Positions 8,837-31,120 of a DNA stretch of 38,309 nucleotides are shown in pieces. The stretch is taken from NCBI GenBank assembly GCA_001825035.1, contig MHUO01000009.1:78176-116484 (forward strand), read 5' to 3'. Position 1 is the first letter of the stretch, and every line of letters begins with the position of its first letter. The translations under genes were made by a program, and so were the position numbers. A model generated the notes under the pieces. The model searched no databases and was not told where the DNA came from. It saw nothing but the letters and a program-made list of their open reading frames with translations. Origin of the DNA: Candidatus Wildermuthbacteria bacterium RIFOXYD1_FULL_50_12 (lineage in GTDB: Bacteria; Patescibacteriota; Minisyncoccia; Minisyncoccales; UBA10102).

Positions 8837-9352
8837 ATGACCACTTTCCTTATAGCAGCAATAACGGCAGACGGTTTTATCGCACGACACTCAAGGCATC
8901 TGGCCGACTGGACAAGCAAGGAAGATAAGCAATTTTTCACTCAAAAAACCAAAGAAGCAGGAGTGGTAATAATGGGCCTCAATACTTTTCGGACTATTGG
9001 AAGACCCCTTGGAGGCCGGCATAATATCGTATACGCGCCTGCCTCGCCGGCAGGCAGACCCCCCGAGGAGAAACTTCAAGGAGTGGAAATTACTCAAGAG
9101 AATCCCAAGGATCTCCTTGCGCGGCTGGAACAGAAAGGGTATAAGCAGGCCGCGATTTGCGGAGGAGCTACGATTTATACTATGTTTATGGAAGCAGGAG
9201 TCGTGGACAAGCTGTATCTTACAGTGGAGCCTGTATTGTTCGGCGCGGGCATCGGACTTTTCACAAAAGAACTGGACGTACGACTGACACTCCAATCCGT
9301 CCAAAAGCTCAATGAGCAAAGCACTTTGTTTGAGTATAATATTATGAAATAA
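8837..9352 (+). CDS. Dihydrofolate reductase-like protein (DHFR/RibD C-terminal fold)
   Basis: [34 protein letters not shown]...[16 protein letters not shown]. Divergent neighbour of thyA. An alternative start is 8816. Confidence 0.8.
9037..9055. repeat. Palindromic element inside the DHFR-like gene
   Basis: GCCTGCC-tcgcc-GGCAGGC. Confidence 0.75.
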
Positions 9353-9354
9353 CT

Positions 9355-9894
9355 ATGGTACTTGGTATCGCAGAACTTCAACGCTTGGTCAAAGAGAAAA
9401 ATCTTGTAGAAAACCTTTCCGAACGCGAGCTAAAAAATCCCGAAGGAGCGGGATTTGATTTGAGAATAGGGGAGTTGTACGAGGTTTCGGGGAAAGGATT
9501 TTTGGGAATTGCAGAGAGAGAAACACCGACAATGGATCTTATCGCAAAATATGAAGATGGAAAAAAGCATATCGTGGTTCTCAAGCCCCAAAAATACTAT
9601 GTGATGAAAACAGTGGAGGATGTAAATATGCCAGAAAACATTTTGGCAATTATGACTCCACGCTCAACCTTGTTTCGCTCCGGAGTGTATATATTCGGCG
9701 GGCAAACTCCCCCTGGATACAAGGGCGGACTAAACATGGGCATCTGTAACTTTCGCGACGAGGACTTTGAATTGGAAATGGGAGCGCGGGTCGTACACAT
9801 TATGTTTTTTGAGGTAAAAGGAGAAGGGAACCTCTACCGCGGCCAATGGCAAGGCGGAAGAGTTACCACGGACCAAAGAGAAACGCAGGTATAG
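9355..9894 (+). CDS. dCTP deaminase/dUTPase superfamily protein, more dUTPase-like
   Basis: IMTPRSTLFRSGVYIFGGQTPPGYKGGLNMGICNFRDEDFELEMGARVVHIMFFEV resembles dUTPase GYRGE..V.LIN...EDFE...GDRIAQ. Confidence 0.75.
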   Translation: MVLGIAELQRLVKEKNLVENLSERELKNPEGAGFDLRIGELYEVSGKGFLGIAERETPTMDLIAKYEDGKKHIVVLKPQKYYVMKTVEDVNMPENILAIMTPRSTLFRSGVYIFGGQTPPGYKGGLNMGICNFRDEDFELEMGARVVHIMFFEVKGEGNLYRGQWQGGRVTTDQRETQV

Positions 9895-9925
9895 CTGTTT
9901 GACAATCTGATAAGGAGGCGACTCG

Positions 9926-10534
9926 ATGGGAAACAGGCTTGTTATCGGCACCGACCTCGACGGAGTCATTATCCGTCATGTTACTGCTATCTTGGCTGCT
10001 TGCGAACAGCAAAAGGTGCCCTTACTGGCGGAGGAAACGAACTCTAACCTTTTCCGCTCCAAAGTAGGCGACGCATTCTACAGGGCAGTAGCGGATTGGC
10101 TCTATCGGGAAGGTACATATCAAGGAGAGCAAGTACGCGGAGCATTCCCAGTGCTTTGGCGCCTCAAGTCCTCTTGGAGAGTGATTGTGGTGTCAGCGCG
10201 GCACCCTGACGCTGTCCCGTTTGCTCAAACATGGCTAGGGGATCAAGAGTTCCACCAGAAAACTGGCATCGGGCGAGAGGATGTCTTTTTCTGCGCAGAA
10301 GAACAGAAGGGCGTTATTCTCGTTCGAGAAAGAGCTCAGGTATATATAGACGATAAACTCTCAGTGCTCGAAGGACTTCCTCCTGATATCTTGAGAATCT
10401 TCTTTGACCCCTTTTGTCTTGTGCGGCACGGTATCCTTCAACCTCCAGCAGGCATCGTTGTCGCAACAAGATGGATAGACATCGAGCACATCATCGTCCA
10501 GCGTTTCTCACAGCCCCAAGGCGTCACTGCTTAG
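9926..10534 (+). CDS. HAD-superfamily hydrolase-like protein
   Basis: LVIGTDLDGVI (DxDG motif I), VIVVSARHPDAVPFAQTWL (motif II), VYIDDKLSVLEGL. SD aaggagg upstream. Confidence 0.65.
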   Translation: MGNRLVIGTDLDGVIIRHVTAILAACEQQKVPLLAEETNSNLFRSKVGDAFYRAVADWLYREGTYQGEQVRGAFPVLWRLKSSWRVIVVSARHPDAVPFAQTWLGDQEFHQKTGIGREDVFFCAEEQKGVILVRERAQVYIDDKLSVLEGLPPDILRIFFDPFCLVRHGILQPPAGIVVATRWIDIEHIIVQRFSQPQGVTA

Positions 10535-10550
10535 GGGCCTTTATTTTTCT
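10513..10550 (+). terminator. Intrinsic terminator overlapping the HAD stop codon
   Basis: GCCCCaag...cttaGGGGC followed by ctttatttttct. Confidence 0.6.
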
Positions 10551-10574
10551 CTGCTTTTCGTATATTCTTTGTAT

Positions 10575-11039
10575 ATGGAACAAAGAAAAACCGTGTACAT
10601 CTGCGGCCCACTTACTGAACTTTCACCAGAATTACAAGAAAAGACAAAAAGGTTCTATGAACATCTTGCAAATCTTTGTGCGGAAATGACTGAATGTCGT
10701 GCTTTTGTTCCTCACGAACATTACGATCCAATCAAGAACGCCGTTTTTACTCCGCAGGAAGTGGATGCTGCTGAGCGCAAACAGGTATGTGAACGCACAT
10801 CTCTTTTACTTGTTATCGCAGTAGCGCCGTCCTGGGGTGGTGGCATTGAGGTAGAAATGGCAAACAGAAGTGGTATTCCGGTGATAATTTTATGTGAGCG
10901 CAATAAACTTGAACAACGAAAAATATCTCGTCTCCTAAGGGGTAACCCTGCCGTTGTTTCAGTTATTCCTTACAATACAGAAGAAGAGGTCATCGAAAAA
11001 TTGCGTGAAGAACTTAAGAATTATAAAGATAGGTTATGA
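10575..11039 (+). CDS. Nucleoside 2-deoxyribosyltransferase-like protein
   Basis: VYICGPLTEL N-terminus and SLLLVIAVAPSWGGGIEVEMANRSGIPVIIL core pattern. Confidence 0.6.
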   Translation: MEQRKTVYICGPLTELSPELQEKTKRFYEHLANLCAEMTECRAFVPHEHYDPIKNAVFTPQEVDAAERKQVCERTSLLLVIAVAPSWGGGIEVEMANRSGIPVIILCERNKLEQRKISRLLRGNPAVVSVIPYNTEEEVIEKLREELKNYKDRL

Positions 11040-12487
11040 ACTATATTCCTACTATCGGTCTTGAAATCCATGCGGAGCTCAAAACGAAGAGTAAGATGTT
11101 TTGCTCGTGCAAAAACGATCCTTTGGAGAAACTGCCGAATGTGAATATTTGTCCCATCTGCATGGGGCATCCGGGAACTCTACCGGTGCCCAATGCAGAG
11201 GCGATTCGCATGGTGCTGAAAACGGGTTTGGCGCTGAACTGTACCGTTGCAGAATATTCAAAGTTTGACCGGAAAAATTATTTTTACCCAGATCTCCCCA
11301 AAGGATATCAAATCAGCCAATACGATTTGCCGCTTTGCGAAAATGGCTTTTTGAGAATAGGCGAAAGGGACATTCGCATCCAGCGCATCCATCTGGAAGA
11401 AGACACCGCGCGTTCTCAGCATTCGGCGCAAGCCGATTATTCTCTGGTGGACTTCAATAGAGCCGGAGTGCCGCTTATGGAGCTGGTTACGGAACCTGAC
11501 CTCGAAAGCGGAGAGGAAGCGGCCGCTTTTGGACAAGAATTACAAATGATTTTACGGTATCTTCTCGTTTCTGACGCAGATATGGAAAAGGGGCAGATGC
11601 GGGTGGAGGCGAATGTCTCGCTCCGCCCCGAAGGGACCGAGGAGCTGGGCACGAAGGTGGAGGTAAAAAATCTCAACTCATTCCGCTCTGTGCAAAACGC
11701 GATCGCATTTGAGATACGTAGACAAACAGAACTGCTAGAGGCCGGCAAGGAAATTGCGCAGGAAACACGGGGATGGAACGAAGCAAAAAAAGAAACGTTT
11801 TCTCAGCGAGAGAAAGAATCGGCGCACGATTATCGGTATTTCCCGGAACCCGACATCCCCCCGCTCACTTTTACCAAGGACTTTATTGAACAGCTTCGCC
11901 TTGAGGTGCCGGAACTCCCACAGAAAAAACGCGAGCGCATACAACAGGAATATGAGCTTAAAGACAAGGAAGTAGCGCTCCTCGTGAAAGACAGAGCGCT
12001 TGGAGAATATTTTGAACAGGTAGTAAGCGAACTTGGCTCTCGTCTCCCGCAAAAAGAACTCGCGAAAAAAATCTCGCTTACCAAAAATTACATCGTTTCA
12101 GATCTCCAAGGACTGCTCAATGGAATGTCCGTGGAAGACCCGAATTTCAAGATTACGCCCGAAAACTTCGCCGAACTCATCAGTATGCTGGCCGATGGCA
12201 CGATTTCTTCGCCCGGCGCAAAATCACTGCTCAAGAAAATGTTTGAAACGGGCGGCGATCCTTCCCAACTCCTGGAGTCCGAACAATTGGCGCAGATTTC
12301 AGACGAAGGCGCCATTGAAAAAATCGCAAAAGACATCATCTCAAAAAATCCCAAAGCAGTAGAAGATTTCAAATCAGGCAAACAAAATGCTCTCCAGTTT
12401 CTTATCGGTCAAATGATGGCCGCCACCAAAGGAACCGTAAGCCCCGAGGGCGCAAGAAAAATTCTAATCACTCTTCTCGCCCCGTAA
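11036..12487 (+). CDS. gatB: Asp/Glu-tRNA(Asn/Gln) amidotransferase subunit B
   Basis: IPTIGLEIHAELKTKSKMFCSC, PVPNAEAIRMVLKTGLALNC, RKNYFYPDLPKGYQISQYDLPL, C-terminal YqeY-like domain. ATGA overlap with the upstream ORF. Confidence 0.97.
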   Translation: MNYIPTIGLEIHAELKTKSKMFCSCKNDPLEKLPNVNICPICMGHPGTLPVPNAEAIRMVLKTGLALNCTVAEYSKFDRKNYFYPDLPKGYQISQYDLPLCENGFLRIGERDIRIQRIHLEEDTARSQHSAQADYSLVDFNRAGVPLMELVTEPDLESGEEAAAFGQELQMILRYLLVSDADMEKGQMRVEANVSLRPEGTEELGTKVEVKNLNSFRSVQNAIAFEIRRQTELLEAGKEIAQETRGWNEAKKETFSQREKESAHDYRYFPEPDIPPLTFTKDFIEQLRLEVPELPQKKRERIQQEYELKDKEVALLVKDRALGEYFEQVVSELGSRLPQKELAKKISLTKNYIVSDLQGLLNGMSVEDPNFKITPENFAELISMLADGTISSPGAKSLLKKMFETGGDPSQLLESEQLAQISDEGAIEKIAKDIISKNPKAVEDFKSGKQNALQFLIGQMMAATKGTVSPEGARKILITLLAP

Positions 12488-13453
12488 GAATTTCTTTACG
12501 ATTTTTGCCCCTTGCTTGAAACCGATAACCCAGCGAATCCGCCCATCTTTTTTAAACCACAGCATTTGGCGGCGGGAAAAGTCCAGTGTTTCTTTGTGGA
12601 TTTTCTGCGTCATCTCATCTTTGGAAATCTGTCCTTGCAGATATTGCGCCACATACTTATATTCGAATCCGAATTGATTGAATTTTTTCCAGGGAATTCC
12701 TTGTTTGTGTAATGTTTCAACCTCCGCAACCAATCCGCGCCGAAACATTTGTTTGATTCTCTGCGCGATGCGTTTCCTCAATTCTTGCTTCTTTCGCCTC
12801 ATCCCTAAAAACAAAATCTGATAGGCCTGTCCGCCGAAGCCTTGCTTGCCCGCCGTAGCTTCAGCGCAGGTGGGGCGTAGGCGGAGGAGAGGACGTTTTT
12901 TCAGGGGTGGCACCGGCTTCCCAGTTGTTAGCACAATTTCTAAGGCGCGGATAAGACGCCTTCGGTTTTTAGGTTCAATGGTTTTTGCCCGAGCAGGGTC
13001 CAGCTTTTGAAGCCGCGAAAATAGTTCTTCCGTAGAAAGTTTTTCGAGGCGTCTTCGAAAAGCAAGATTTGGCTTTATTCCGGGGAATATCCATCCTTCG
13101 ATCAGGGCATAGATATAAAGAGGACTGCCTCCTACTATAAAAGGCACTCTAGAACGCGAAAAAACGCCCCCTAGGACTCTTTTTGCCTTATTCTGGTAAT
13201 CAACCACAGTAAAGGTCTTTTTTGGGGAGGTAACACTTAAAAGATGATGGGGGACGCCCATCATCTCGCGTTTTGACACCTTTGCCGTGCCGATATCCAA
13301 ACCCCTGTATACCTGCCGGGAATCCGCCGAGATAATCTCTCCACCGAAGCGTTTGGCAAGCCGCACCGCCAGCTCGCTCTTCCCCGATGCGGTCGGACCG
13401 ACGACAACCACTAGTGAATTTCTTCTTTTTTCTCTTTCAATAATCCGCGCCAT
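12464..13453 (-). CDS. miaA: tRNA dimethylallyltransferase
   Basis: VVVVGPTASGKSELAVRLAKRFGGEIISADSRQVYRGLDIGTAK, VPHHLLSV, GGSPLYIYAL, RRRLIRALEIVLTTGKP. Confidence 0.95.
   Translation of the reverse strand: MARIIEREKRRNSLVVVVGPTASGKSELAVRLAKRFGGEIISADSRQVYRGLDIGTAKVSKREMMGVPHHLLSVTSPKKTFTVVDYQNKAKRVLGGVFSRSRVPFIVGGSPLYIYALIEGWIFPGIKPNLAFRRRLEKLSTEELFSRLQKLDPARAKTIEPKNRRRLIRALEIVLTTGKPVPPLKKRPLLRLRPTCAEATAGKQGFGGQAYQILFLGMRRKKQELRKRIAQRIKQMFRRGLVAEVETLHKQGIPWKKFNQFGFEYKYVAQYLQGQISKDEMTQKIHKETLDFSRRQMLWFKKDGRIRWVIGFKQGAKIVKKFLRGEKSD
12826..12880. repeat. Palindrome-family insert inside miaA
   Basis: tgtccgccgaagccttgcttgcccgccgtagcttcagcgcagg; encodes the extra peptide PTCAEATAGKQGFGGQA. 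Confidence 0.75.
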
Positions 13454-15012
13454 TGCTCCAAGAATTCCACAAACATTTGAAAAGGCACTTCAATAAGGAA
13501 GTTCAGCGCGAGGAGAAATACGTTGTATCTAACGAGCTGCCCGGAAAGCCATCTGCCAACCTGAATCATCGGCAGGGAAAAAATATCAAAGAGGTTATAC
13601 AAAAATCCTTCCCGCGCGGGCTCCACCATCAATTCTCGTGCCTGCTGACGGATTTTCGTTCCGGCAAACAGCACCAAGGAAAGGAACATCAGAAAGATCG
13701 CGATGGAAAAAGGCGAGAACTGAAGCTCCTGCAGGCCCCATATGAGAACTCCAAAGGAAATGAGGAAGCTCAAAAGATAGAAACCGTACACGATGCTCGC
13801 CACCAAACCGGTTTTTCTGCGCGGCGGAAAAATTTTATAAGGTTCCATTCGCTGGCGCGGTTGAATAATTTTGATAACCTCCATCATCACGCGTTCGAAA
13901 TTGCGCTGCGAGCTTGTTTGCGCGGTGACAACCAGTCCGAGCATTAAAAAGGAGGGGACGGCGATGCTCAGGGCAATTGCAAGATAATTGACACCCGCTT
14001 GCAGATACCGTTCTACCGGAATTTCAATAAGAAACGCGATCAGCACTTTCGTAATGAACACCGACAAGACGCTGTACAAGGCCGCCCTGCCAATGCGCCT
14101 TTTTAGGCGCGCGTGCCGCCCATTGTAAGAATGCCGAATCGCTTCTTCAAAAGCGGGAGGATTATCCGCAAGCTCCGGGAAGCGCGCACTATCGTCGCTC
14201 AAAATATCGTGCAGGATAAGATACGGGGTGTCGTACTTTTCTGCGAGCTGGTAGAACCGCTCCCGATAAGGATGGGCAAGAATTTTCTGGATATTTTGGC
14301 GTAAAACCTCAAGATGATCTCCCACATAGGCAAGCGTTTCTTCTGTTGGGGTTTTCCAATCGGGATAAAACTTTTCCAAAATGTGATAGGCAATAGTGAC
14401 GGCATCCAGCTTAAACAGTGCTCTTTGCACCGCCACATAGATTTGAAGTTTCTTTTCCCCTTCGGCAAGAGGTCTCTCCGTTTCCTGTTTTCGGGCGATA
14501 AGCTGAGTGCGATTCTCCAAGTCCTCCGTCATCAGCTCAATGAGCGCGTGTTCGCGCCGCGGTAAAGAGAGTGTTTCTTCAATTTCTACTGCAGCTATGG
14601 AAAAGAGCCAATCCGTTGAATCTTTCCCATTTCTTTGCTGCCTTTCCCAAAAACGTTCTGCGACGAACACGTACTTTTGAATAATGGCCTGGATTTCGTC
14701 AACCTGATCAAAGGAAATTCGATTGTTCGGGAAATGACCTCCGCGTACGAGTTCTGCAAGAAAATTCTCGGCAAAATCCTCGCGGACTTTCTGGATGGCC
14801 AAGCGGCGTTTCAGAATGCGCTCAATCGCGGTCTTGCGGAGCAAATGTTCTCCTCTCCAATCCACGATTTCGCGGAGTTTTTCGTAAAACGAAGCGACGC
14901 GGGCGGCTACTTCGTCCACGGAAATCACCTCCTCTTCCTCGCGGAACTCGAATTGTTTTCGCCAGCTGTCGTATTTTTCAATAAGTTTTTGCACTCCTTG
15001 GGAAATAATCAT
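13411..15012 (-). CDS. Conserved membrane protein of unknown function (helical N-terminal half, several C-terminal TM helices)
   Basis: 533-aa uninterrupted ORF in the thrS-miaA operon; TM segments such as LLSFLISFGVLIWGL and FSIAIFLMFLSLVLFAG. Confidence 0.8.
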   Translation of the reverse strand: MIISQGVQKLIEKYDSWRKQFEFREEEEVISVDEVAARVASFYEKLREIVDWRGEHLLRKTAIERILKRRLAIQKVREDFAENFLAELVRGGHFPNNRISFDQVDEIQAIIQKYVFVAERFWERQQRNGKDSTDWLFSIAAVEIEETLSLPRREHALIELMTEDLENRTQLIARKQETERPLAEGEKKLQIYVAVQRALFKLDAVTIAYHILEKFYPDWKTPTEETLAYVGDHLEVLRQNIQKILAHPYRERFYQLAEKYDTPYLILHDILSDDSARFPELADNPPAFEEAIRHSYNGRHARLKRRIGRAALYSVLSVFITKVLIAFLIEIPVERYLQAGVNYLAIALSIAVPSFLMLGLVVTAQTSSQRNFERVMMEVIKIIQPRQRMEPYKIFPPRRKTGLVASIVYGFYLLSFLISFGVLIWGLQELQFSPFSIAIFLMFLSLVLFAGTKIRQQARELMVEPAREGFLYNLFDIFSLPMIQVGRWLSGQLVRYNVFLLALNFLIEVPFQMFVEFLEQWRGLLKEKKEEIH

Positions 15013-15031
15013 ACGAGTGAAAGCTCAAATC

Positions 15032-16849
15032 TCAAAGATTTTTTATATGCTCTTCGAATTGCTCCAGTTTCATTGCGCCAATGTCGCCTTTCCCGCGTTC
15101 GCGTACACTCACGGTGTCGTCGACCATTTCTTTTTCGCCCACGATCACAAGATACGGAATTTTCATTGTTTCTCCTTCACGAATGCGTTTGCTCAATGTT
15201 TCTTGAGCGTCGTCCACTTTCACCCGCATATTTTTGTTGTGGGAAAGCAGCTTTGCGCGTACGCGCTCGGCGTACTCTGAAAACTTGACGGATAAAGGCA
15301 GAATCTGTATTTGCACTGGAGCGAGCCAAAACGGGAAAGCGCCCGCATATTGTTCAATGAGGAAAGCGACGAAACGTTCGTGAGAACCCAGTGGAGCCCG
15401 ATGGATAACGTATACGGGCTTTTCTTTTCCGTCTTTATCTTTGTACACAAGGTTGAATCTACTGGCGGCAAAGAAATCAAGCTGGTTGGTGGAGGCGGTT
15501 TCTTCTCTTCCGATGACGCTTCTAATCTGAAAGTCCACCTTTGGCCCGTAAAACGCTGCCTCTCCCTCGACTTCCTGGTAGGGGAGCCCGGATTTTTTCA
15601 TGGCGCTCCGGACAATCTCAACCGCCTCTTTCCATTCTTTAGGAACGCCCGCGTATTTTTTCTTGTCTTTTGCGGGCAGACCTGCCTGCCGGTCAGGCAG
15701 GGAGAGCCGCATGTAAAAATCCTGAATGCCGAACACTTCCTTATACCAAAATTCATGAAGCCGCATGACATTCAAGAACTCTTCTTCTGCCTGTTCTTTG
15801 GAACAGTAAATGTGCGCGTCGTTTTGGGTAAACCCTCGCACCCGAAGAAGTCCGGCAAGGGTGCCGGAGCGCTCATATCGGTACACAGTTCCGTACTCTG
15901 CGTAACGAATGGGCAGCTCCCGCCAGCTGTGGGGATAAGCTTTATACACCATATGCGTGTGCGGGCAGTTCATTGCTTTGAGATAATAAGTTCCGTCGTC
16001 CAGCTTCATTGGCGGATACATGCTTTCGGAGTAATAAGGGATATGTCCCGACATTTTGTAGAGGATGTCCCTCGCAATATGCGGAGTTGACACGCGCTCG
16101 TACCCCCACTGCCGCTCCACTTCTTTTGCCCGTTTTTCAATTTCTTCGCGGATAATAGTGCCGGCTGGCAACCAAAGCGGAAGTCCCGGCCCCACTTCTT
16201 CTGCAAACGTAAAAAGTTTCAAGCGTTCACCCAATATGCGGTGATCCCGTTTCTTTGCTTCTTCCTGCTGCCAAAGATATTGCTCAAGGTTTTTTCCCGT
16301 CTGGAATGCGGCGCCATACACGCGCGTAAGCATGGGGTTTTTCTCGTCGCCTCGCCAATAAGCACCCGCCACGTGGGTGAGTTTAAAAGCGTCCAGCGGA
16401 AGCTCTGAAGTATTTTTCACATGCCCGCCGCGGCATAAGTCCAAAAATACGTCACCAGTGTAAACCACCCCAACCTTAGTCAATTTTGAATTTGTTTGGG
16501 ATTTAACGAGATCTCGTATGAGTTCAAGCTTATAGGGTTGTTTTTCCTTCTTGTAGTATGTCGCAGCTTTTGCCACCGGCCAGAGTTCTTTTTTGAAGGG
16601 AAGATTCTGTTTGACGATTGTGCGCATTTCAGCTTCTATCTTTGGCAAATCCTCTTCCGTTATAAATTTCCCCGCCTTCGCTAAAGCTTCGGCGGGCAAG
16701 GCAAAGTCGTAATAAAATCCGTTTTCAATCACGGGCCCAATTCCTAATTCTGCTTTAGGATATCGGCTCTTCACGGCCGCAGCCAAAATATGCGCGAAGG
16801 AATGCCGTATATGCTCACTATCGGAGGAAATTTGCTTTGCTGATGCCAT
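15032..16849 (-). CDS. thrS: Threonine-tRNA ligase, apparently without an N-terminal TGS domain
   Basis: HIRHSFAHILAAAVKSRYPKAELGIGPVIENGFYYDF, MSGHIPYYSESMYPPMKLDDGTYYLKAMNCPHTHMVY, GLLRVRGFTQNDAHIYC. Start at MASAKQIS. Confidence 0.94.
   Translation of the reverse strand: MASAKQISSDSEHIRHSFAHILAAAVKSRYPKAELGIGPVIENGFYYDFALPAEALAKAGKFITEEDLPKIEAEMRTIVKQNLPFKKELWPVAKAATYYKKEKQPYKLELIRDLVKSQTNSKLTKVGVVYTGDVFLDLCRGGHVKNTSELPLDAFKLTHVAGAYWRGDEKNPMLTRVYGAAFQTGKNLEQYLWQQEEAKKRDHRILGERLKLFTFAEEVGPGLPLWLPAGTIIREEIEKRAKEVERQWGYERVSTPHIARDILYKMSGHIPYYSESMYPPMKLDDGTYYLKAMNCPHTHMVYKAYPHSWRELPIRYAEYGTVYRYERSGTLAGLLRVRGFTQNDAHIYCSKEQAEEEFLNVMRLHEFWYKEVFGIQDFYMRLSLPDRQAGLPAKDKKKYAGVPKEWKEAVEIVRSAMKKSGLPYQEVEGEAAFYGPKVDFQIRSVIGREETASTNQLDFFAASRFNLVYKDKDGKEKPVYVIHRAPLGSHERFVAFLIEQYAGAFPFWLAPVQIQILPLSVKFSEYAERVRAKLLSHNKNMRVKVDDAQETLSKRIREGETMKIPYLVIVGEKEMVDDTVSVRERGKGDIGAMKLEQFEEHIKNL
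15681..15701. repeat. Palindromic element inside thrS
   Basis: CCTGCCTG-ccggt-CAGGCAGG. Confidence 0.85.
16671..16696. repeat. Second palindromic element inside thrS
   Basis: CCCGCC-ttcgctaaagcttc-GGCGGG. Confidence 0.7.
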
Positions 16850-17206: not shown

Positions 17207-17245
17207 ACCCCCGGAGAGCTCACGCTCACCGGGGGTTCTGATTTT
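17207..17245 (+). terminator. Intrinsic-terminator-like hairpin after the 65-aa ORF
   Basis: ACCCCCGG (17207-17214) / CCGGGGGT (17229-17236), inner GAGC/GCTC, then tctgatttt. Confidence 0.6.
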
Positions 17246-20200: not shown

Positions 20201-20474
20201 GAATGATGTGGTAAATGGTATCGTCCACGCCGGGGCGCTTGTCCAGCATGCCTTCGCGCGCCACATACATTTCACATCCCAAAATGGGTTTTATGCTCCT
20301 CTCCTTTGCCTTTTTGTAAAATTCCACAGCGCCGTATAAGTTGCCGTGATCTGTCAGAGCCACGGAATCCATACCGAGCTCCTGCACCCTATCCAAAAGC
20401 TGGTCTATTTTGGGAAGACCGTCCAACAACGAGTAGTGCGAATGGATATGGAGATGAGTGAATTTTCCGGGCAT
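17253..20474 (-). CDS. dnaE: DNA polymerase III subunit alpha
   Basis: PHP motifs (HLHIHSHYSLLDG, ALTDHGNLYGAVEFYKKA), VGPGRGSAAGSLVAYLLKIT, PDIDLDFADTRRDEVIEY, OB-fold near the C-terminus. Confidence 0.97.
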   Translation of the reverse strand: MPGKFTHLHIHSHYSLLDGLPKIDQLLDRVQELGMDSVALTDHGNLYGAVEFYKKAKERSIKPILGCEMYVAREGMLDKRPGVDDTIYHIILLVKNAQGYKNLIKLLTRAHLEGFYYKPRVDETLLAKHAEGLIALSACLAGKISQLILANKMEEARNAALNYEKMFGRGNFYLELQRHPNISEQTKVNGVLLEISKTTGIPVVATADSHYLRKEDAEAQDVLMLINTNAKRDDPERLSMKGEDFSLKSAQEMTELFSDIPEALENTQKIAAACNAELELHKNLLPEFPLPEGKTADEYLRELCLAGLEAKPQYKDSKEARDRLGYELDVIRQTGFAAYFLIVQDFVNWAKQNRIVVGPGRGSAAGSLVAYLLKITNVDPLRYNLLFERFLNPERVSRPDIDLDFADTRRDEVIEYVAQKYGRDRVAQIITFGTMASRAVVRDVGRALGYEYGYCDRVAKLIPFGYSLAQSLEQVDDFRQLYESDEQAKRLIDLGKKLEGVARHASTHACGVVISSDPLDERVPLQHPTQNDVSIVTQYEMHSVEDIGLLKMDFLGLKNLTIIEETLKRIYAIHGKNIDIDAVPLDDPKVYTLLRQGDTTGVFQLESGGMRRYLRELKPSAFEDIIAMVALYRPGPMELIPDYIARKAGKKEIVYLHPKLEPILRNTYGIAVYQEQILQVARDLAGFSYGEADILRKAIGKKIKGLLEEQKAKFVERAIANGTSKKIAEKVFDFIEPFASYGFNRSHAACYATIAYQTAWLKANYPLEFMSALLTSERADVERTAFLIEETRKMGIEVLPPDVNESFAFFSVVPEKKQIRFGLLAIKNVGEGIVASIIQERKEHGPYLSIHDFVSRVATKDLNKKSMESMIKAGVFDQFGERNQLLHNMERLLGIARENQKNKTNGQKGLFDAHFAPSEKTSFALEAAEPAKETEMLSWEKELLGLYVTSHPLKGIKNILESRALAIRSLEEAVQEIHNTRYKFQFSRQRERLRIGGIISSVKRIVTKAGKPMLFMRVEDLTDRIEVVVFPSVIERYPSALQENKIVFITGRLDHRGGEKKFLAEEIEEILTA

Positions 20475-20508
20475 TACTCAATTCTATCTCTTTTGCTACA
20501 ATATCTCA

Positions 20509-21114
20509 ATGCAGAAAATCGTCATAGGCATTGACGAAGTCGGAAGGGGCAGTTTGGCAGGACCGGTAGTGGCAGCCGCTTTTTGTATGGTGGGAAAGCC
20601 GCGGCTGCGCGCGATAGGGGATTTTGATTCCAAAAAACTTACGCCCAGATGGCGCGAAGATCTATACGAGATCCTTACTCGCCACCCGGATGTTGAATGG
20701 GGGATAGGGAAAGTTTCGGAAAGACAGATAGACAGGATAAACATTCTTCAAGCAACACGCCTTGCCATGCGCAAAGCATTCTTATCGCTGAGGCGCAAAC
20801 TCGTCAAAAGGGAAGTGAAGCCATCCCTTGTCATCGTAGATGGCCGTACGCTCCTTGACATCCCCGTTCCCCAAAGAGCACTCCCGCACGCAGACGCCAC
20901 GATATTTTTCTGCATGGCTTCATCCATCATTGCGAAGGTCACCCGCGACCGGCTTATGACGCGCTATCACAAGAAATATCCAAGGTACGGCTTTAACCGC
21001 CACAAAGGGTATGGAACGCCATACCATCTCCAGGCCCTCAAAAAATACGGCCCCTGCTCCATTCATCGGCTCTCTTTTACCCCTTGCAAACAAATGCAGG
21101 GAGTGATAAAGTAG
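20509..21114 (+). CDS. rnhB: Ribonuclease HII
   Basis: IGIDEVGRGSLAGPVVAAA, DSKKLTPRWRE, ASSIIAKVTRDRLM, YGFNRHKGYGTPYH. Confidence 0.95.
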   Translation: MQKIVIGIDEVGRGSLAGPVVAAAFCMVGKPRLRAIGDFDSKKLTPRWREDLYEILTRHPDVEWGIGKVSERQIDRINILQATRLAMRKAFLSLRRKLVKREVKPSLVIVDGRTLLDIPVPQRALPHADATIFFCMASSIIAKVTRDRLMTRYHKKYPRYGFNRHKGYGTPYHLQALKKYGPCSIHRLSFTPCKQMQGVIK

Positions 21115-22539: not shown

Positions 22540-22980
22540 ATGCTTACGATTCGACTTTTCAGAGTAGGAAGAAAAAATCAACCGGCGTTTAAGATAGTGG
22601 TTACCGATAAAAGAAAATCCTCCACAAGAGGGCGTTTTGTGGAAGAGGTTGGGGTGTACAATCCCTTAACCAAGCAGCGCAATCTTAAGGGAGACCGCGT
22701 AAAATACTGGATATCGGTTGGTGCCAAACCTTCTCCCACGGTGCACAACATGCTCGTGGCAGATAAAATTGTGGAGGGTGCCAAAATCGCAAAACATAAA
22801 CTTCCCAAGAAAACCTCTGAAGGTGTCGCTCCTAAAGTAGCTGCCGTAGTGCCAGAACCCTCTCAAGCTGCTCCTGCGACAACGGAAGTCCCAGCCTCGC
22901 CATCAGGCGGGCAAGCCGAACCCGCCAAAAACCCGCCAGAGGCGGGTAATAAGGCGGGCGAGGAGCCCAAACAGCCATAA
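22540..22980 (+). CDS. rpsP: 30S ribosomal protein S16 with low-complexity C-terminal tail
   Basis: MLTIRLFRVGRKNQPAFKIVVTDKRKSSTRGRFVEEVGVYNPLTKQ; tail PASPSGGQAEPAKNPPEAGNKAGEEPKQP. Confidence 0.95.
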   Translation: MLTIRLFRVGRKNQPAFKIVVTDKRKSSTRGRFVEEVGVYNPLTKQRNLKGDRVKYWISVGAKPSPTVHNMLVADKIVEGAKIAKHKLPKKTSEGVAPKVAAVVPEPSQAAPATTEVPASPSGGQAEPAKNPPEAGNKAGEEPKQP

Positions 22981-23386: not shown

Positions 23387-23425
23387 AACCCCTCGGATTG
23401 TGGTACGTCCGAGGGGTTCCTATTT
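23387..23425 (+). terminator. Intrinsic terminator-like hairpin
   Basis: 11-bp stem AACCCCTCGGA (23387-23397) / TCCGAGGGGTT (23408-23418), then cctattt. Confidence 0.65.
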
Positions 23426-23924: not shown

Positions 23925-23948
23925 AAAATCAACCTTGAAATCCGCAAG

Positions 23949-23984: not shown

Positions 23985-24006
23985 TCCTGAGCGAAGTCGG
24001 AGGACT

Positions 24007-24666
24007 ATGCGATTTGATATCATTACCATCTTTCCCGAAATCTTTGACTCGTATTTTCAAGAGTCGCTTTTGAAGCGGGCTCGCACGAAAAAGCTTATTG
24101 ACATTCGCGTACATAATTTGCGCAATTGGGCGCGCGACTCCCACCAAACCGTAGACGACAAACCATTTGGAGGAGGATTGGGAATGGTGATGAAAATTGA
24201 ACCAATTTCTAAAGCGGTTCAGGAGTTGAAAGAAAAAAGGGCAAAGAGCAAGGTTATTTTATTTACTCCAAGAGGAAAAAAGTTTAACCAGCGAAGGGCG
24301 CAAGAGTACGCAAATCTCGACCAGCTCATCATGATTTGCGGAAGATATGAAGGAGTGGACGAACGAATAGGGAAGTATATCGCAGACGAACAGATATCAA
24401 TAGGGAATTATGATTTGATGGGCGGGGAACTTCCGGCCATGATCGTGGCGGAAACCGTGGCGCGATTGATCCCGGGAGTAATTGGGAAAAAAGAATTTCT
24501 CCAAGAGCGCGTGAAAGAAGGAGGGTTTATGGAGTATCCTCAATACACGCGCCCTGAGGTTTTCGAGATTGAAGGAAAGATGCGCAGTGTCCCCAAAATT
24601 CTTCTGTCGGGCGATCACAAAAAAATTGCGGCGTGGCGGACAAAACACGGAAAGCTCATTACGTGA
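24007..24666 (+). CDS. trmD: tRNA (guanine37-N1)-methyltransferase
   Basis: MRFDIITIFPEIFDSYFQESLLKRA, DDKPFGGGLGMVMKIEP, ICGRYEGVDERI, IGNYDLMGGELPAMIVAETVARLIPGVIG. Confidence 0.97.
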   Translation: MRFDIITIFPEIFDSYFQESLLKRARTKKLIDIRVHNLRNWARDSHQTVDDKPFGGGLGMVMKIEPISKAVQELKEKRAKSKVILFTPRGKKFNQRRAQEYANLDQLIMICGRYEGVDERIGKYIADEQISIGNYDLMGGELPAMIVAETVARLIPGVIGKKEFLQERVKEGGFMEYPQYTRPEVFEIEGKMRSVPKILLSGDHKKIAAWRTKHGKLIT

Positions 24667-24667
24667 A

Positions 24668-24696: not shown

Positions 24697-24727
24697 AAGG
24701 TAGTCCTCCTATGTCAAGTTCGGAGGA

Positions 24728-24877: not shown

Positions 24878-24883
24878 CTTTAG

Positions 24884-24956
24884 GCCAATGTAGCTCAGTC
24901 GGCAGAGCAACTCCATGGTAAGGAGTAGGTCGCCGGTTCAATTCCGGCCATTGGCT
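24884..24956 (+). tRNA. tRNA-Thr (GGT)
   Basis: Acceptor GCCAATG/CATTGGC, anticodon arm ACTCC-ATGGTAA-GGAGT, T-arm GCCGG-TTCAATT-CCGGC. CCA not encoded. Confidence 0.93.
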
Positions 24957-24978
24957 CAAGATAAGTTTTAAACAACAT

Positions 24979-25143
24979 ATGGCAGCGAAGAAAAAACCAT
25001 TTACAAAGTTCCAGTGCGGCACGTGCAAGGAGATCAATTACTTTATCAAGAAATCCAAGGCGGTAGCCGAGGTAAAGTTGGAATTGAAAAAGTTCTGCAA
25101 GCACTGCAAAAAACGCACCGCGCACAAGGAAACAAAAAAATAA
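24979..25143 (+). CDS. rpmG: 50S ribosomal protein L33
   Basis: MAAKKKPFTKFQCGTCKEINYFIKKSKAVAEVKLELKKFCKHCKKRTAHKETKK, four-Cys L33 pattern. Below the ORF-track length cut-off. Confidence 0.9.
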   Translation: MAAKKKPFTKFQCGTCKEINYFIKKSKAVAEVKLELKKFCKHCKKRTAHKETKK

Positions 25144-25145
25144 AT

Positions 25146-25220
25146 GGGGGCGTAGTGTCAGCGGTAGCACAACGGTCTCCAAAACCGTTAGCCCAAGTTC
25201 GAATCTTGGCGCCCCTGCCA
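25146..25220 (+). tRNA. tRNA-Trp (CCA)
   Basis: Acceptor GGGGGCG/CGCCCCT, anticodon loop CTCCAAA, T-loop TTCGAAT, encoded 3' CCA. Confidence 0.93.
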
Positions 25221-25226
25221 AACATT

Positions 25227-25255
25227 TTGACTTTATGCAGCATATGTGGTATAAC
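25227..25255 (+). promoter_or_regulatory. Sigma70-type promoter for the half-size MFS gene
   Basis: TTGACT (25227-25232), 17-bp spacer, TATAAC (25250-25255) with TGTGG upstream. Confidence 0.7.
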
Positions 25256-25288
25256 GTTACTGCAGTACATTACAGATAAGGAGCAGAT

Positions 25289-25876
25289 ATGCTGAATGTC
25301 TTTCGAAAGGGTCAGCTCACGAACTACAAAATCTTCCTCGGGGCGGACACGATCGTGTCCTTCGCGATGGGCCTTTTCGGACCTTTCTGGGCCGTCTTTA
25401 TCCTCGAATTCGGCGATTCTTCCATAGAGTCGCTTGGATTCGCGGTGGGGATAATGATCCTGGCCCAATCTCTAACCGCGTACTTCGCGGGGAAGTTCTC
25501 CGACAGGTTTGGCCGCAAAGGTTTTATGGTCGGAGCAAACTTGGCCATCGCGATGATCATCTTCTCTTACACTCTCGTAGAATCACTGGTACAGCTGTAC
25601 GCTGTCCAAGTGATGTACGGGATTGTAACTGCTATCTCGGGGACTGCCGAATCGGCGTTCCTGGGCGATATCACAGAAAGGGCAACTCGCGGCAGAGACG
25701 TAGGGAAACTGAACGCGATCACGGGTATAGCGGCCGCTCTTGCTATGATGGGAGGGGGAATCCTCGTCGGGGGATTCGGCTTCAACATCATCTTCTATGC
25801 GGTCGCCGGCTTCTTTTTCCTGTCGGCCGTCCTGCTCTTACTTATAAAGGAGAAAAGGATGCCGACAGCGGAGTAG
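25289..25876 (+). CDS. Half-size (about 6 TM) MFS-like transporter
   Basis: 195-aa hydrophobic protein with MFS loop-2/3 signature AGKFSDRFGRKGFMV; own promoter and terminator. Confidence 0.75.
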   Translation: MLNVFRKGQLTNYKIFLGADTIVSFAMGLFGPFWAVFILEFGDSSIESLGFAVGIMILAQSLTAYFAGKFSDRFGRKGFMVGANLAIAMIIFSYTLVESLVQLYAVQVMYGIVTAISGTAESAFLGDITERATRGRDVGKLNAITGIAAALAMMGGGILVGGFGFNIIFYAVAGFFFLSAVLLLLIKEKRMPTAE

Positions 25877-25891
25877 CGCCTGCAAGATAGA

Positions 25892-25932
25892 GGCGTCCGC
25901 CATGCGCACGCGTGGTGGACGCCTTCTTTCAT
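25892..25932 (+). terminator. Intrinsic terminator after the MFS gene
   Basis: 11-bp stem GGCGTCCGCCA (25892-25902) / TGGTGGACGCC (25913-25923) then ttctttcat. Confidence 0.75.
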
Positions 25933-25968
25933 TTCATGAAAATTTTGATACAATGAAGTGACTACCGT

Positions 25969-26496
25969 ATGGTGAAACTCCCAATCGTAGCGTACCCGGA
26001 GAAAATCCTCAAGCAGAAAGCCGAGGAAGTTTTGAAAACCACTCCGGAAATCAAAAAGCTCATTCCTCAAATGATGAGAGCGATGTACGAGCACGAAGGC
26101 ATCGGGCTCGCCGCTCCCCAAGTCGGCATATCCAAAAAGATTATTATCGTGGAAACTTCGGACAACCCCCGCGCGAACAAAGGCAAGTCACTTGCATTTC
26201 TCAATCCGGTCATCAAAAAAAAGGTGGGGAAATCTATCACAGAAGAGGAAGGATGCTTGAGTTTGCCAGGAATTTCTGTCCCGGTAAGACGTTCAGAATC
26301 TGTGGAGCTTGTGTGCCAGACCCCGGAAGGCGAAGATGTGCGCATTGTGGCAAAAGGTTTGACCGCGCGGATTTTCCAACACGAAATCGATCACTTAAAC
26401 GGAAAACTCATTATAGATAGAATACCCTTATGGAAGCGTCTCTCCGTAAAGCGTTTACTCAAATCAAAAGAGAGGACTTCACCCCTGGCGAACTGA
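25969..26496 (+). CDS. def: Peptide deformylase
   Basis: HEGIGLAAPQVGISKKIIIV, EEGCLSLPGISVPV, IFQHEIDHLNGKLIIDRI. Confidence 0.97.
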   Translation: MVKLPIVAYPEKILKQKAEEVLKTTPEIKKLIPQMMRAMYEHEGIGLAAPQVGISKKIIIVETSDNPRANKGKSLAFLNPVIKKKVGKSITEEEGCLSLPGISVPVRRSESVELVCQTPEGEDVRIVAKGLTARIFQHEIDHLNGKLIIDRIPLWKRLSVKRLLKSKERTSPLAN

Positions 26497-27008
26497 AAGA
26501 ATTTGCCGATATTGACGAAGCCCTTCCGATTGGCTGGGGGCAAACTATCTCTCAGCCCTTTACGGTTGCGTTTATGCTGGAAAAGCTTGAGCCACAAGCT
26601 GACCAAAAAATCTTGGACATCGGTTCAGGATCCGGCTGGACCACCGCCCTTCTTGCGCACGTTGTGGGGCTGCGCGGCAAAGTGGTCGCCATAGAAGTCA
26701 TTCCGCACCTCAAGGAATTTGGTGAAAAAAACGTTGCAAAGTATAATTTTATAGAGAAGGGGATTGTGGAATTCCTTTGCCGAAACGGCGCGGACGGCTA
26801 TGCGAAAGATGCTCCGTATGACGGTATCTTGGTTTCCGCAAGTTTGCCCAAAAAGGAACTTCCGCTCGCATGGAAACAGCAACTAAAGATCGGCGGGAAA
26901 ATCGTCGTGCCTATCCAAAACTCCATTTGGGTCTTTACCAAAACAGATGAACATACGTTCGGCGAGCAAGAACATCCGGGATTTGTTTTTGTCCCGTTTG
27001 TTTCATAG
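26430..27008 (+). CDS. pcm: Protein-L-isoaspartate O-methyltransferase
   Basis: ALPIGWGQTISQPFTVAFMLEKL, ILDIGSGSGWTTALLAHVVG, DGILVSASLP. Confidence 0.92.
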   Translation: MEASLRKAFTQIKREDFTPGELKEFADIDEALPIGWGQTISQPFTVAFMLEKLEPQADQKILDIGSGSGWTTALLAHVVGLRGKVVAIEVIPHLKEFGEKNVAKYNFIEKGIVEFLCRNGADGYAKDAPYDGILVSASLPKKELPLAWKQQLKIGGKIVVPIQNSIWVFTKTDEHTFGEQEHPGFVFVPFVS

Positions 27009-28062
27009 AAAATTTACCCTCAGGAGGACGAAGCTCGCGTGGGGAGCCGTCGCGGTTTTCGTTGTTACTGTGGCGATTGCTGGGATTATCCACATCTTTC
27101 TTCCCATTAATCCCGACGATGCGAACTCCGTGCTCTTTAAGGTTCAGGAAGGAGAAGGAAGCTACCGCATAGCTTCCGACCTTGAAGAAGCCGGCCTTAT
27201 ACGATCGCGCACAAGCTTTTTCCTGTACGCGGTGTTGACGGGCCGCGCCTTGCGCCTCCAAAGCGGCGACTATCTTCTCTCGCCCTCCATAAACGCAAAC
27301 GCAATTCTCCGCGCGCTCGCAGGCGGCGACATTGTGCAGGAGCGCATTACCATTCTGGAAGGAGGGGATCTTCGCGATATTGCGGCGGAATTTGAAAAAC
27401 GCGGATTCTTTACGCAAGAAGAATTCTTCGCGGTTACCGGATACCCCGGCATTGACTACCGAGAAGAAACCGATCTCCCCCGCCCAAAGGACTTTTCTGG
27501 CGAATTCGAGTTTTTGCGTGATAAACCGCCTTCCGTGAGTTTGGAGGGATATCTTTTCCCCGACACCTATCAAATTACGAAAAACGAAACTGCAGAAGGA
27601 TTCGTGCGGCGGGCGCTCCAAAACTTTCGGGCAAATCTCACATCAGAAATTCTCGAAGCAATAAAAACCCAGAACAAAACTATTTTTGAGGTGGTGAATT
27701 GGGCCGCTCTCGTGGAAAAGGAAGTACGCACTTTTGAGGACAAACAGCTGGTAGCCGGCATTTTGCAAAAACGTATGGAAAACGGCGTGCGTCTGCAGGC
27801 GGACGCCACCGTAGTATATATCCGCGACGGAAACTATGAGCGCGTTTCTATCGCAGAAACACAAATTGAGTCGCCCTACAACACATACCGGATATATGGT
27901 TTACCCTTGGGTCCAATTTCAAATCCGGGGATAGAAAGTATTAGGGCCGCGCTGGAACCTGTGGAAAGCGCGTACTGGTACTATTTGTCCGCGCGCGACG
28001 GCACAACCATATTTTCCCGCACATTCAAAGAACACCTCGCCGCCAAAGAACGCTATCTGTGA
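26947..28062 (+). CDS. mltG: Endolytic transglycosylase MltG-like (YceG)
   Basis: TM anchor, LQSGDYLLSP, LEGYLFPDTYQI, WAALVEKEVRTFEDKQLVAGILQKRMENGVRLQADATVVY, SPYNTYRIYGLPLGPISNPG. Confidence 0.94.
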   Translation: MNIRSASKNIRDLFLSRLFHRKFTLRRTKLAWGAVAVFVVTVAIAGIIHIFLPINPDDANSVLFKVQEGEGSYRIASDLEEAGLIRSRTSFFLYAVLTGRALRLQSGDYLLSPSINANAILRALAGGDIVQERITILEGGDLRDIAAEFEKRGFFTQEEFFAVTGYPGIDYREETDLPRPKDFSGEFEFLRDKPPSVSLEGYLFPDTYQITKNETAEGFVRRALQNFRANLTSEILEAIKTQNKTIFEVVNWAALVEKEVRTFEDKQLVAGILQKRMENGVRLQADATVVYIRDGNYERVSIAETQIESPYNTYRIYGLPLGPISNPGIESIRAALEPVESAYWYYLSARDGTTIFSRTFKEHLAAKERYL

Positions 28063-28068
28063 TAGCCC

Positions 28069-28097
28069 TTGACGAGTTTTAGGTGACTTGCTATTAT
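28069..28097 (+). promoter_or_regulatory. Sigma70-type promoter for rplJ-rplL
   Basis: TTGACG (28069-28074), 17-bp spacer, TATTAT (28092-28097). Confidence 0.75.
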
Positions 28098-28108
28098 AGG
28101 AATGTTTT

Positions 28109-28180
28109 CCGTAGACCACGGGCCCTTCGATTCGCTTCGCTCACTCAGGGCAAGCAACGAACGATAAGCCCCGTGCAGGA
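28109..28180 (+). ncRNA. L10-leader-like cis-regulatory RNA with inserted palindrome
   Basis: CCGTAGACCACGGG ... GATAAGCCCCGTGCAGG; stem CACGGG (28117-28122) / CCCGTG (28170-28175); resembles ribosomal L10 leaders and sits upstream of rplJ. Confidence 0.6.
28123..28150. repeat. Palindromic element of the CCCTTCGA..TCAGGG type in the rplJ leader
   Basis: CCCTTCGATTCGCTTCGCTCACTCAGGG; the reverse strand reads LSERSESKG in the spurious antisense ORF. Confidence 0.75.
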
Positions 28181-28227
28181 ATAATATTTTGCGACATTTT
28201 TGAATGCCGCGAAATATCGATTTATGT

Positions 28228-28256
28228 CTGCGGAAACTCCGCAGTTTTATTTTTAT
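28228..28256 (+). terminator. Intrinsic terminator/attenuator in the rplJ leader
   Basis: CTGCGGA-aac-TCCGCAG followed by TTTTATTTTTAT, ending 15 nt before the rplJ ATG. Confidence 0.8.
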
Positions 28257-28271
28257 CTGGAGTTCAAGAGT

Positions 28272-28793
28272 ATGCCAAAAACCAAACAACAAAAACTGGA
28301 AATCCTCAAAGAATTGGAGAAAAACCTCCAGAAACAGGTTTCCTTGGTGTTTATCAACTACAAAGGACTTTCTGCAAGAGATCTGGTGGATTTCAGGCAG
28401 GAATTGCGGGGAAATGAAGCCCAAATGATGGTGGTCAAAAAAACCCTCCTCCAAAAGGCGCTGCGAGAAAAGGGGATTGAGACAGACATAAAGCGCATGG
28501 AAGGCCAGCTGGGAGTGGTATTCGCGTATGGAGATCCCATAGCCGCCATTAAGAACACGCACACTTTTGCCCGCGCGCACGAAAGTTTGCAGATTTTAGG
28601 CGGATATTTTGAAAACGAAATACAGAACGCGGCCGTCATGCTTGAGATTGCCAGCTTGCCCGACAAGGAAGAGCTTTTGGCTCACCTTGTAGGCGCAATG
28701 GCTTCTCCAATAACGGGCCTCGTTTCCGTATTGCAAGGAAACATTAAAGGTCTGGTGTACGTTTTGGCCCAGAGAGCCAAAATGAATGTCTAA
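28272..28793 (+). CDS. rplJ: 50S ribosomal protein L10
   Basis: [44 protein letters not shown]...[13 protein letters not shown]. Confidence 0.94.
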
Positions 28794-28818
28794 TTTCCTA
28801 TTACTAATTTTAAAACCT

Positions 28819-29250
28819 ATGACAGAAGAAAAAACAACAGAAGAGAAAAAGGAGGTAGAAGTGCCAGAGAAATTTAAGTCGCTGGTAGAATCCATCGAAA
28901 AACTCTCGGTGCTGGAGCTTTCTGAACTCGTGCACATTCTGGAGGATAAATTCGGCGTGTCTGCAGCCGCTCCCGTAATGATGGGAGCAGCCCCCGCCCC
29001 TGCTGAAGCTTCGGCGGACAAGGAAGAAAAGTCCTCATTCAACGTGGTGCTTGCCGGAGTGGGGGACAAAAAGATTGAGGTTATCAAAGTGGTGAGAGAC
29101 GTAACTGGAAAGGGACTGAAGGAAGCCAAAAATCTTGTTGACGCCGCGGCCACGGGTCCCCAAGTGGTAAAAGAGGGGGCCGCCAAAGAAGAAGCAGAAG
29201 AACTCAAGAAAAAGCTTGAGACGGCTGGAGCTACCGTGGAACTCAAATAA
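28819..29250 (+). CDS. rplL: 50S ribosomal protein L7/L12
   Basis: [53 protein letters not shown]. Confidence 0.97.
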
Positions 29251-31120
29251 TCTCTACAGAGATGCGATAAAGTTTCGCGCCGTCAAAAAAATACATCGTT
29301 TGCCCGTCGGCGGAAACTGAGAAATCGCGAACATTAGCGAACACAGAACTCCTATACTGCAAAACCACCTGTCCTGATTTGCTCAAAATCACCGCTCGCC
29401 ATTCCGCAGGTTCCAGAAGATACAGGTAGGGAAGTTGAGAAGATGTCTTAAGCAAACGCACTGCACGGAATACCGGGAAAATATCGGGGCGCAAGCTCTC
29501 CTCATACGATCCTCGGAAATACCGCTGAATCTCGTTGTCTTGAGTGAGAATCCAAATGTTTCCATCAATGCCCATCGCCTGGGCATTGACTGGTTTTTTG
29601 GAAGAAAGAGGGTCAAGCCAGCTCGCAGCGGCCGTCGGAGAATTCTGAGAAATAGAGAAGCGAAAAATGTCGCCGCTTCTCGCGTCAAAGAAATAGAGGT
29701 TTCCTCCGTACTGCTCCATTCCCTTAAGCTGAGCTTCCGGGAGGAAGGAAACTGCGGGACGAAAAACAACGGCGTTCGTGAACGTGCTGAAGGAGAGAAT
29801 CGTATCGGGCTCTGCAAAGAACAGCAGCGAATCTCCGAAAGCAGTTCCAAATGCAAGATTTTTTCCTACGGTCACTGATTCAAAAGTGTTGATTTCGCCG
29901 TCAAAGATTAGAATTTTAGGAGAAGCCGGACCAAAAAAGTAGAACCTGCTGCTCATCTGAATCATGTATTGAGGATTCTCTGCGGCAAAGTTCGCGGGAA
30001 GTTCAAAAACAACATCGGGCTCCGCAATCTCCCTCACGTTGTACAATGCGCGTTGTTCAGCTGAAATTTCCGTGGGGCCGACTTGCGAGCTTTGCCGATC
30101 GGATGCGTCGCTACCGCGACGCGGTTCACCTCCCAAGATTGCAAAGCCAAGAAGCAACACCAACAGGAAGAGCGCAAGCAGCCCTGCTCGCCGTTTGGCT
30201 GCCGAAGCCAGAAAAAACAGAATTTTCTTCTTGAGCGAAGATGCACCTGGCAAGAGAGGCAAGGAAACGGCGGGCGGGCGGAGCATGGCGAGCAGGGCGG
30301 GTTTGAAACGAGGACGCGGAAGCGCGGGCAAGCTGAAGCGCGGCACTCCTACCTGCGCAGGCAGGCCTGCCAAAAATGGTATCTTGAGCCGAGACCCGCC
30401 TGCGCGGGCAGGTTCGCCTTTTGCTTTCTCTTGCACTTTAGCCGGGGCCTCCACGAACACAAAAAACAGAATGCCCGCCAGCGAGTCCATCTCTTTGTGT
30501 TTGGTCTTAAAGAGATGATGAAATTGCTTTTCCTCCTTTAATTGCGCTACGGTTTGCAAAAAATTTTCTTTGGAGAAAAACGCGAATACGTCCTCGGTGA
30601 GCCCCATAATTCTGTCTCCCGGAATCGCTCTGCCAGAACCCACGCTTCCGAACACCTTCAAAGAGCCCTCATTTTCAGCCCTCCGCTCTACGCTTTTCCC
30701 GGCGTCCACAAGGGAACCGGATCTTGCCATCCAAAGTTGCGTTCTGCCGGCTTTCGCAAAATACAGGGCATACCCGTCTCCAGCAGGAGCGAGTAAAAGC
30801 ACAAGCACGTGCAGATTCCCAAGCCAGTCCACATTTCCTTGCTTGGATTCTTCTGTCAGAAACTCGTTTGCTTTTTTAAGCGCCCCTTTCAAGCGCTGAG
30901 AAGTTGACTGTGCTTGCTGATCTGAAGCGTAGTATGTTTGGGAGATAACGTTGAAAAGGCGATCGAGAAAATCAGCGTTGGCGGGAATGGCGTTTGCCAG
31001 TTCGCCCATAAGATACAAACTACCGAACTCTTCTGTTCCCTTTGGCGGTTCTCCCGGAAACACTCGGAAGAACCTGTCCTTGTGCGCCTTGGGGTTAAAC
31101 TGAAACTCAAAAATTCGCAT
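29243..31120 (-). CDS. Membrane protein: PPM/PP2C-like N-terminal domain, Pro-rich linker, TM helix, propeller-like C-terminal domain
   Basis: N-terminal [19 protein letters not shown]...[35 protein letters not shown]-terminal repeated beta-type segments ([47 protein letters not shown]). Confidence 0.65.
30352..30412. repeat. Two palindromic elements in the linker of the PPM/propeller-like gene
   Basis: CTGCGCAG and perfect 12-bp palindrome GGCAGGCCTGCC (30360-30371); CCCGC-ctgc-GCGGG near 30395-30408. Confidence 0.75.

Follow-up and report, generated by a model that had tools for sequence, protein, structure and literature searches.

Dispersed palindromes inserted in frame into conserved protein genes have been known from the Rickettsia palindromic elements (RPEs; Ogata et al. 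2000), which are described as repeats of 100-150 bp (PMC3767692). Shorter palindromes of 20-40 bp, the GTAG and CGTC repetitive extragenic palindromes (REPs; Di Nocera et al. 2013), were present in several phyla and some were located in open reading frames (ORFs) where they encoded extra residues. The CGTC REPs were without a dedicated transposase, and loops and linkers were suggested as tolerated sites (PMC3733652). REPINs were paired, extragenic, and tied to a cognate REP-associated tyrosine transposase (RAYT; PMC3116915). Here, we analyzed 38,309 bases (the window) of contig C9 of Candidatus Wildermuthbacteria bacterium RIFOXYD1_FULL_50_12, where an earlier note had pointed out GC-rich palindromes lying in frame inside conserved genes. 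The whole genome comprised 676,968 bases, and the genomes of its relatives were also small (about 0.4-1.1 Mb), which agrees with the assignment to the candidate phyla radiation (CPR; Patescibacteria) implied in the earlier note. We considered it probable that several families of small (16-27 bp), GC-rich, untagged palindromes in these genomes behaved as non-autonomous REP-like mobile elements.

The palindromes formed recurrent families far exceeding chance. The earlier note had proposed a single dispersed family; the dispersal was supported, but the sequences fell into several families of types A, B, C, D, and E. Their copies in a 385-kb sample of the genome, with the numbers expected from third-order Markov sequences, were as follows.

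Family A: TCCGCCAGCTGGCGGA, a 16-bp unit; 16 copies against 0.3 expected
Family B: CCTGCCTGCGCAGGCAGG, an 18-bp unit; 18 copies against 0.3 expected
Family C: CCTGCCTCGCCGGCAGGCAGG, for which a symmetric variant C2 exists; 5 copies against 0 expected
Family D: CCCGCCTTCGCTNNAGCTTCGGCGGG; 4 copies against 0 expected
Family E: CCCTTCGACNNGCTCAGGG, the exact sequence having 19 bases; 4 copies against 0 expected

Altogether, the sample contained roughly 45 family members with units of 16-27 bp, in agreement with the size and multiplicity of REPs (palindromes of 20-40 bp in many copies). Counts for the own genome came from this sample except for two patterns followed through the entire sequence. 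Namely, the family A pattern CCGCCAGCTGGCGG occurred 15 times exactly and 34 times at <=1 mismatch, exact B occurred 9 times, and the reversed patterns used as controls occurred 0 times. Thus, the excess of motifs anticipated in the earlier note held against both the Markov and the reversed-pattern controls. Directly beyond the 16-bp A and the 18-bp B units the information content dropped to near zero, giving a sharp edge of conservation. Exact A was low and patchy among the relatives (0 to 17 copies each), and exact B was likewise patchy: of 380 genomes examined in the phylum, 9 contained it (control hits none). It was also present in 25 IMG/VR stretches, which raises a viral reservoir as a possibility. 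The exact 19-base E sequence was present in many phyla, the matches listed including Sphingomonas, Microbacterium, Chloroflexi, Bacteroidetes, Omnitrophota, and several Patescibacteria, and by arithmetic about 2 matches in 257 Gb would be expected by chance. Among the E matches listed, about 60 of 137 copies were deep inside long open frames according to a crude test.

Every palindrome located by the earlier note was recovered in its place or a few bases from it. Several terminator-like hairpins in the window outscored them. The strongest hairpins, at 17207-17236 and 23387-23418, resembled terminators and had no relationship with the repeat families. The sites in the window were compared with orthologues, including those of the closest relative, G016, and of G021; the latter two were genomes of one genus with 85% identity over the 119 kb compared.

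9038-9058, plus strand: C-type element CCTGCCTCGCCGGCAGGCAGA, in frame in a dihydrofolate reductase (DHFR)/RibD-like gene (8816-9352), encoding PASPAGR
12827-12886, minus strand: 60-bp in-frame insertion in miaA with a D-type palindrome (core 12849-12874), encoding LRLRPTCAEATAGKQGFGGQ
15681-15701, minus strand: C-type element, CCTGCCTGACCGGCAGGCAGG in gene sense, in frame in thrS, adding 7 amino acids (DRQAGLP)
16671-16696, minus strand: D-type element, CCCGCCTTCGCTAAAGCTTCGGCGGG on the plus strand, in frame in thrS, encoding PAEALAKAG
22893-22960, plus strand: several short CCCGCC/GGCGGG palindromes clustered in the C-terminal tail of rpsP
23985-24005, plus strand: intergenic E-like element TCCTGAGCGAAGTCGGAGGAC, just 5' of the start codon of the gene at 24007; these 21 bp were absent in G016
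28993-29018, plus strand: D-like palindrome in the linker of rplL (L7/L12)
30348-30365, minus strand: B-type element within the linker region of the gene at 29243-31120 (PPM), encoding GLPAQVG
30395-30412, minus strand: another B-type element within that linker, encoding PARAGG
31430-31447, plus strand: B-type element in the ORF 31257-32102, encoding SLSAQAG; one orthologue only

Alignment with the orthologues revealed the added in-frame peptides postulated by the earlier note in MiaA, at both sites of ThrS, and in the DHFR-like protein, but not in L7/L12. The 20-residue peptide of MiaA was absent in 29 of 29 orthologues. In thrS, the 15681 site was exactly 21 bp longer than in G016, while the 16671 site had a net gain of about 9 residues absent in 29 of 29 relatives; both ThrS peptides were missing from G016 and the other relatives. 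The 7-residue insert of the DHFR-like gene was shared with G021 and absent from G016 and other relatives, with a clean difference of 21 bp between G021 and G016. An insertion in rplL was rejected because the linker was equally long in the relatives and no peptide had been added. In all relatives, the tail of rpsP and the linker of PPM were hypervariable; the palindromes there, like the one in the 31257 ORF with its single orthologue, are candidate insertions, and for the rpsP tail an insertion was not provable. In models built from family alignments, the insertions of MiaA and ThrS occupied predicted low-confidence loop segments, namely residues 191-210 of MiaA between a helix and a strand (mean pLDDT 56-58) and segments 58-60 and 388-396 of ThrS, numbered from the start codon at 16849 (pLDDT <50).

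The Rickettsia-like insertion suggested by the earlier note, in frame and at loop positions of conserved protein genes, also occurred independently in the relatives. The family-wide sample covered 12 members and 1.36 Mb, of which 385 kb belonged to the own genome and about 970 kb to eleven relatives. It provided 87 copies that were compared with orthologues, and 70 of them were genic, which answered the note's question of genic versus intergenic copies. Since the genic share was about 80% and the coding fraction about 86%, the elements hardly avoided genes. Clean in-frame gains of 18 bp were observed for B at L003:8121, L074:9256, and L091:16529, and further clean in-frame gains for C at L253:18924, E at L082:4317, and D at L280:5218. 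The difference between a filled and an empty site was exactly 18 bp for B, 21 bp for C, and 24 bp for E. Moreover, comparison of G016 with G021 gave 33 clean indels, 9-120 bp in length, 33% of which were self-complementary at p<=0.05 compared with 6.6% of random control segments. About 20 of these 33, as judged by reading the sequences, represented the families or their variants, often with exactly 18 or 21 bp. The gene for the phenylalanyl-tRNA synthetase beta subunit (PheT) had received at least 4 different insertions across these two genomes. In one gene, a single position was occupied in G021 (L275:2100) by an A element and in the own genome (L003) by an E-like one, hinting at insertion hot spots.

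The reading frames were used unequally. Family A was distributed 21/8/5 over the three frames (p 0.0017), mostly giving PPAGG, and family B 6/0/11 (p 0.0047), mostly giving LPAQAG-like peptides, with the Cys-Leu-Arg-Arg frame never used. Judging from their sequences, the A, B, and C units were stop-free in all frames, and the B, C, D, and E inserts were multiples of three with sizes of 18, 21, about 24, and about 27 bp. We infer that this frame neutrality was a product of selection at the level of the family.

Three loci carried a nested arrangement of B in B, CCTGCCT[CCTGYCCGCGCAGGCGGG]GCGCAGGCAGG, which at one of them had the opposite orientation. This nesting argued that sequence already present had been copied and not created on the spot. 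When filled and empty sites were compared, the slide length at element insertions was 0-7 and no constant target-site duplication was found. A CTGCC repeat at ThrS was rejected as a target duplication because it looked like shared sequence rather than a rule. Accordingly, membership in the miniature inverted-repeat transposable elements (MITEs), as proposed in the earlier note, was not supported, since a fixed target-site duplication was not seen.

The elements resembled RPEs in being dispersed palindromes, placed in frame in conserved ORFs and tolerated in loops, and PheT was a host in both (PMC3767692). However, units of 16-27 bp with several unrelated sequences stood against repeats of 100-150 bp, and the two were set apart by description, not by sequence. 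The likeness to GTAG and CGTC REPs consisted in short palindromes occurring in several phyla, some of them intragenic, and, for CGTC, in the lack of a dedicated transposase. In contrast to those tagged and predominantly intergenic repeats, the present ones were tagless, mostly single instead of head-to-head dimers, and about 80% intragenic, and the phyla listed in the available portion of the source (PMC3733652) did not include Patescibacteria. No GTAG or CGTC tag was found, the flank information outside the A and B units being about 0 bits. REPINs were similar as short palindromic mobile units, but neither their pairing nor their linkage to RAYT was found here, and no cognate RAYT flanked by A-E palindromes was detected in the own genome or at the inspected loci of relatives. 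The small dispersed repeats (SDRs) of Nostoc, attributed to Elhai et al. 2008, reportedly measure 21-27 nt. They are not known outside cyanobacteria, nor are they known chiefly for in-frame insertion into core genes. The likeness extended to the size range, folding potential, nested copies, and absence of a known enzyme, and our unit sizes and nested B copies fitted this description; however, the sequences are probably different, and the likeness was one of size and description. An insertion of SDR5 into HIP1 is mentioned in a further source (PMC4390886).

Thus, the elements worked like RPEs and REPs but lacked defining features of tagged REPs, of RAYT-linked REPs, and of MITEs. A search of open-access full text, repeat sequences included and with subscription literature outside its scope, found no report of such repeats in Patescibacteria or the CPR. 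They represented a small, untagged, mainly intragenic variant, undescribed for Patescibacteria in the literature searched, although intragenic REPs and RPEs were already known.

If these families are mobile in the REP-like manner that we consider probable, a pre-existing copy would be duplicated at a fresh position, at times within another copy, and no target duplication of fixed length would accompany the event. Because most of the genome is coding, most insertions would strike genes, and the survivors would be those that kept the frame, brought no in-frame stop, and fell into a surface loop or linker. Lengths in multiples of three and stop-free symmetric units would make the elements frame-neutral parasites. 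They may still be moving, served by an enzyme that would act in trans on the hairpin; a candidate would be a Y1/HUH transposase whose gene adjoins none of the copies. Alternatively, the palindromes could have arisen de novo at each site by template switching or quasi-palindrome correction, their recurrence reflecting similar GC-rich seeds. Several insertions indeed had 3-7 nt in common with the target edge, and family A resembled a replacement of target bases. However, the same 16-18 bp sequences at unrelated sites with uninformative flanks, the nested 36-bp composites at three loci, and the spread of exact E over many phyla made such an origin unlikely. The elements could also be ordinary REPs moved by a RAYT/Y1 transposase encoded in the genome, the partner expected by the earlier note. 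The transposase searches, which covered PF01797 only, returned one Y1 transposase in the own genome and Y1 transposases in 23 of 39 relatives, and across 40 genomes the copy number of A was weakly correlated with the number of Y1 genes (rho 0.32, p 0.044). On the other hand, the correlation vanished within the family (rho 0.05), the own Y1 locus was flanked by TGCTAGGACNGTCC palindromes, and the inspected RAYT loci of relatives had unrelated palindromes of their own, A-E copies being incidental and further away. Moreover, 6 exact family A copies in G005 (91% complete) and E copies in G014 (100% complete), one of them an in-frame insert, were present without a Y1 hit. RAYT was therefore rejected as the mobilizer, and we regard this explanation as quite improbable. 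The Y1/RAYT-like gene itself (G000:C9:193376-193588, L072) had TGCTAGGACWGTCCYAGCA palindromes on both sides and was partly masked as N.

Two further explanations were considered. Selected recognition sites, such as an uptake sequence, a Chi-like site, or a nucleoid site, would be genic simply because the genome consists mostly of genes, and the genic share was in fact near the coding fraction; but comparison with orthologues showed the elements to be additional in-frame blocks, their copy number was low and patchy, and several unrelated sequences coexisted, which left this explanation very unlikely. A mere by-product of Pro/Ala/Gly-rich linker codons, with no element at all, agreed with the low complexity and variability of the rplL linker, the rpsP tail, and the PPM linker. 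It was hardly credible as a general account since it explained neither the insertions in MiaA, ThrS, the DHFR-like protein, PheT, and other core domains, nor the intergenic copies and the variety of frames (PPAGG, SASWR, GLPAQAG, PACAGR). Thus, it was contradicted for most sites and possibly holds for rplL.

Several points weighed against mobile REP-like families. The motif families were first delimited by eye in the data and their copies counted afterwards, and some orthologous copies entered the frame tests more than once. Family A often seemed to replace 1-10 bp of the target instead of inserting cleanly, and because of this apparent replacement its mechanism may differ from that of the other families. 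Some sites were common to related genomes, so that many insertions were old, and no insertion within a species was caught because the best pair of genomes was about 85% identical. Finally, the PF01797 search did not yield a mobilizing enzyme, since the RAYT loci carried other palindromes and the within-family correlation was near zero.

Other features were observed in the same genomes. The F-type repeats TCCCGTACGAAAT...ATTTCGTACGGGA were excluded from the palindromes as a separate leader-like family. A leader of roughly 78 bp, TCCCGTACGAAAT...AACAAACGAAATTTCGTACGGGATG, was present in five copies (L075:14055-14150, L077:7958-8050, L011:11780-11875, L002:4650-4745, and L002:9620-9715), and its final ATG apparently served as the start of the gene that followed, which by its first residues was murG-like, hisS-like, or rbfA-like. 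Its terminal repeats could pair distantly or locally, suggesting a translational switch. Another motif of about 95 bp with the core ACGCGAGGGTCCACTCCGAAGGAGGGGTWAAGCGC was found at L002:1280-1420, L002:7740-7880, L003:6050-6190, and L074:14380-14520; it was closed by a stem whose sequence varied between copies with the complementarity kept, and a related copy adjoined rplL in G016. It may be a new structured RNA. One copy of each was tested against Rfam, and no match was found for either the leader or the 95-bp motif. In addition, the G004 orthologue (L090) of the window gene at 20458-21114 contained a 370-residue insertion absent in all relatives, which began with Cys, ended with Gly-Asn before Ser, and looked like an intein.

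A broader proposal, which we put forward tentatively and with some doubt, is that untagged mobile palindromes below 30 bp, partly shared across phyla (E) and tuned to frame neutrality, would rank among the leading sources of new protein segments in Patescibacteria and would be moved by a so far unrecognized enzyme. Mobile DNA of about 18 bp landing in frame in essential genes would rank with the smallest known mobile elements and would provide a system in which to test how units of this size are moved. These elements would also account for the odd PPAGG, LPAQAG, and AEALAKAG peptides in annotated CPR proteins, and they may be a chief source of small protein insertions in streamlined, gene-dense genomes.

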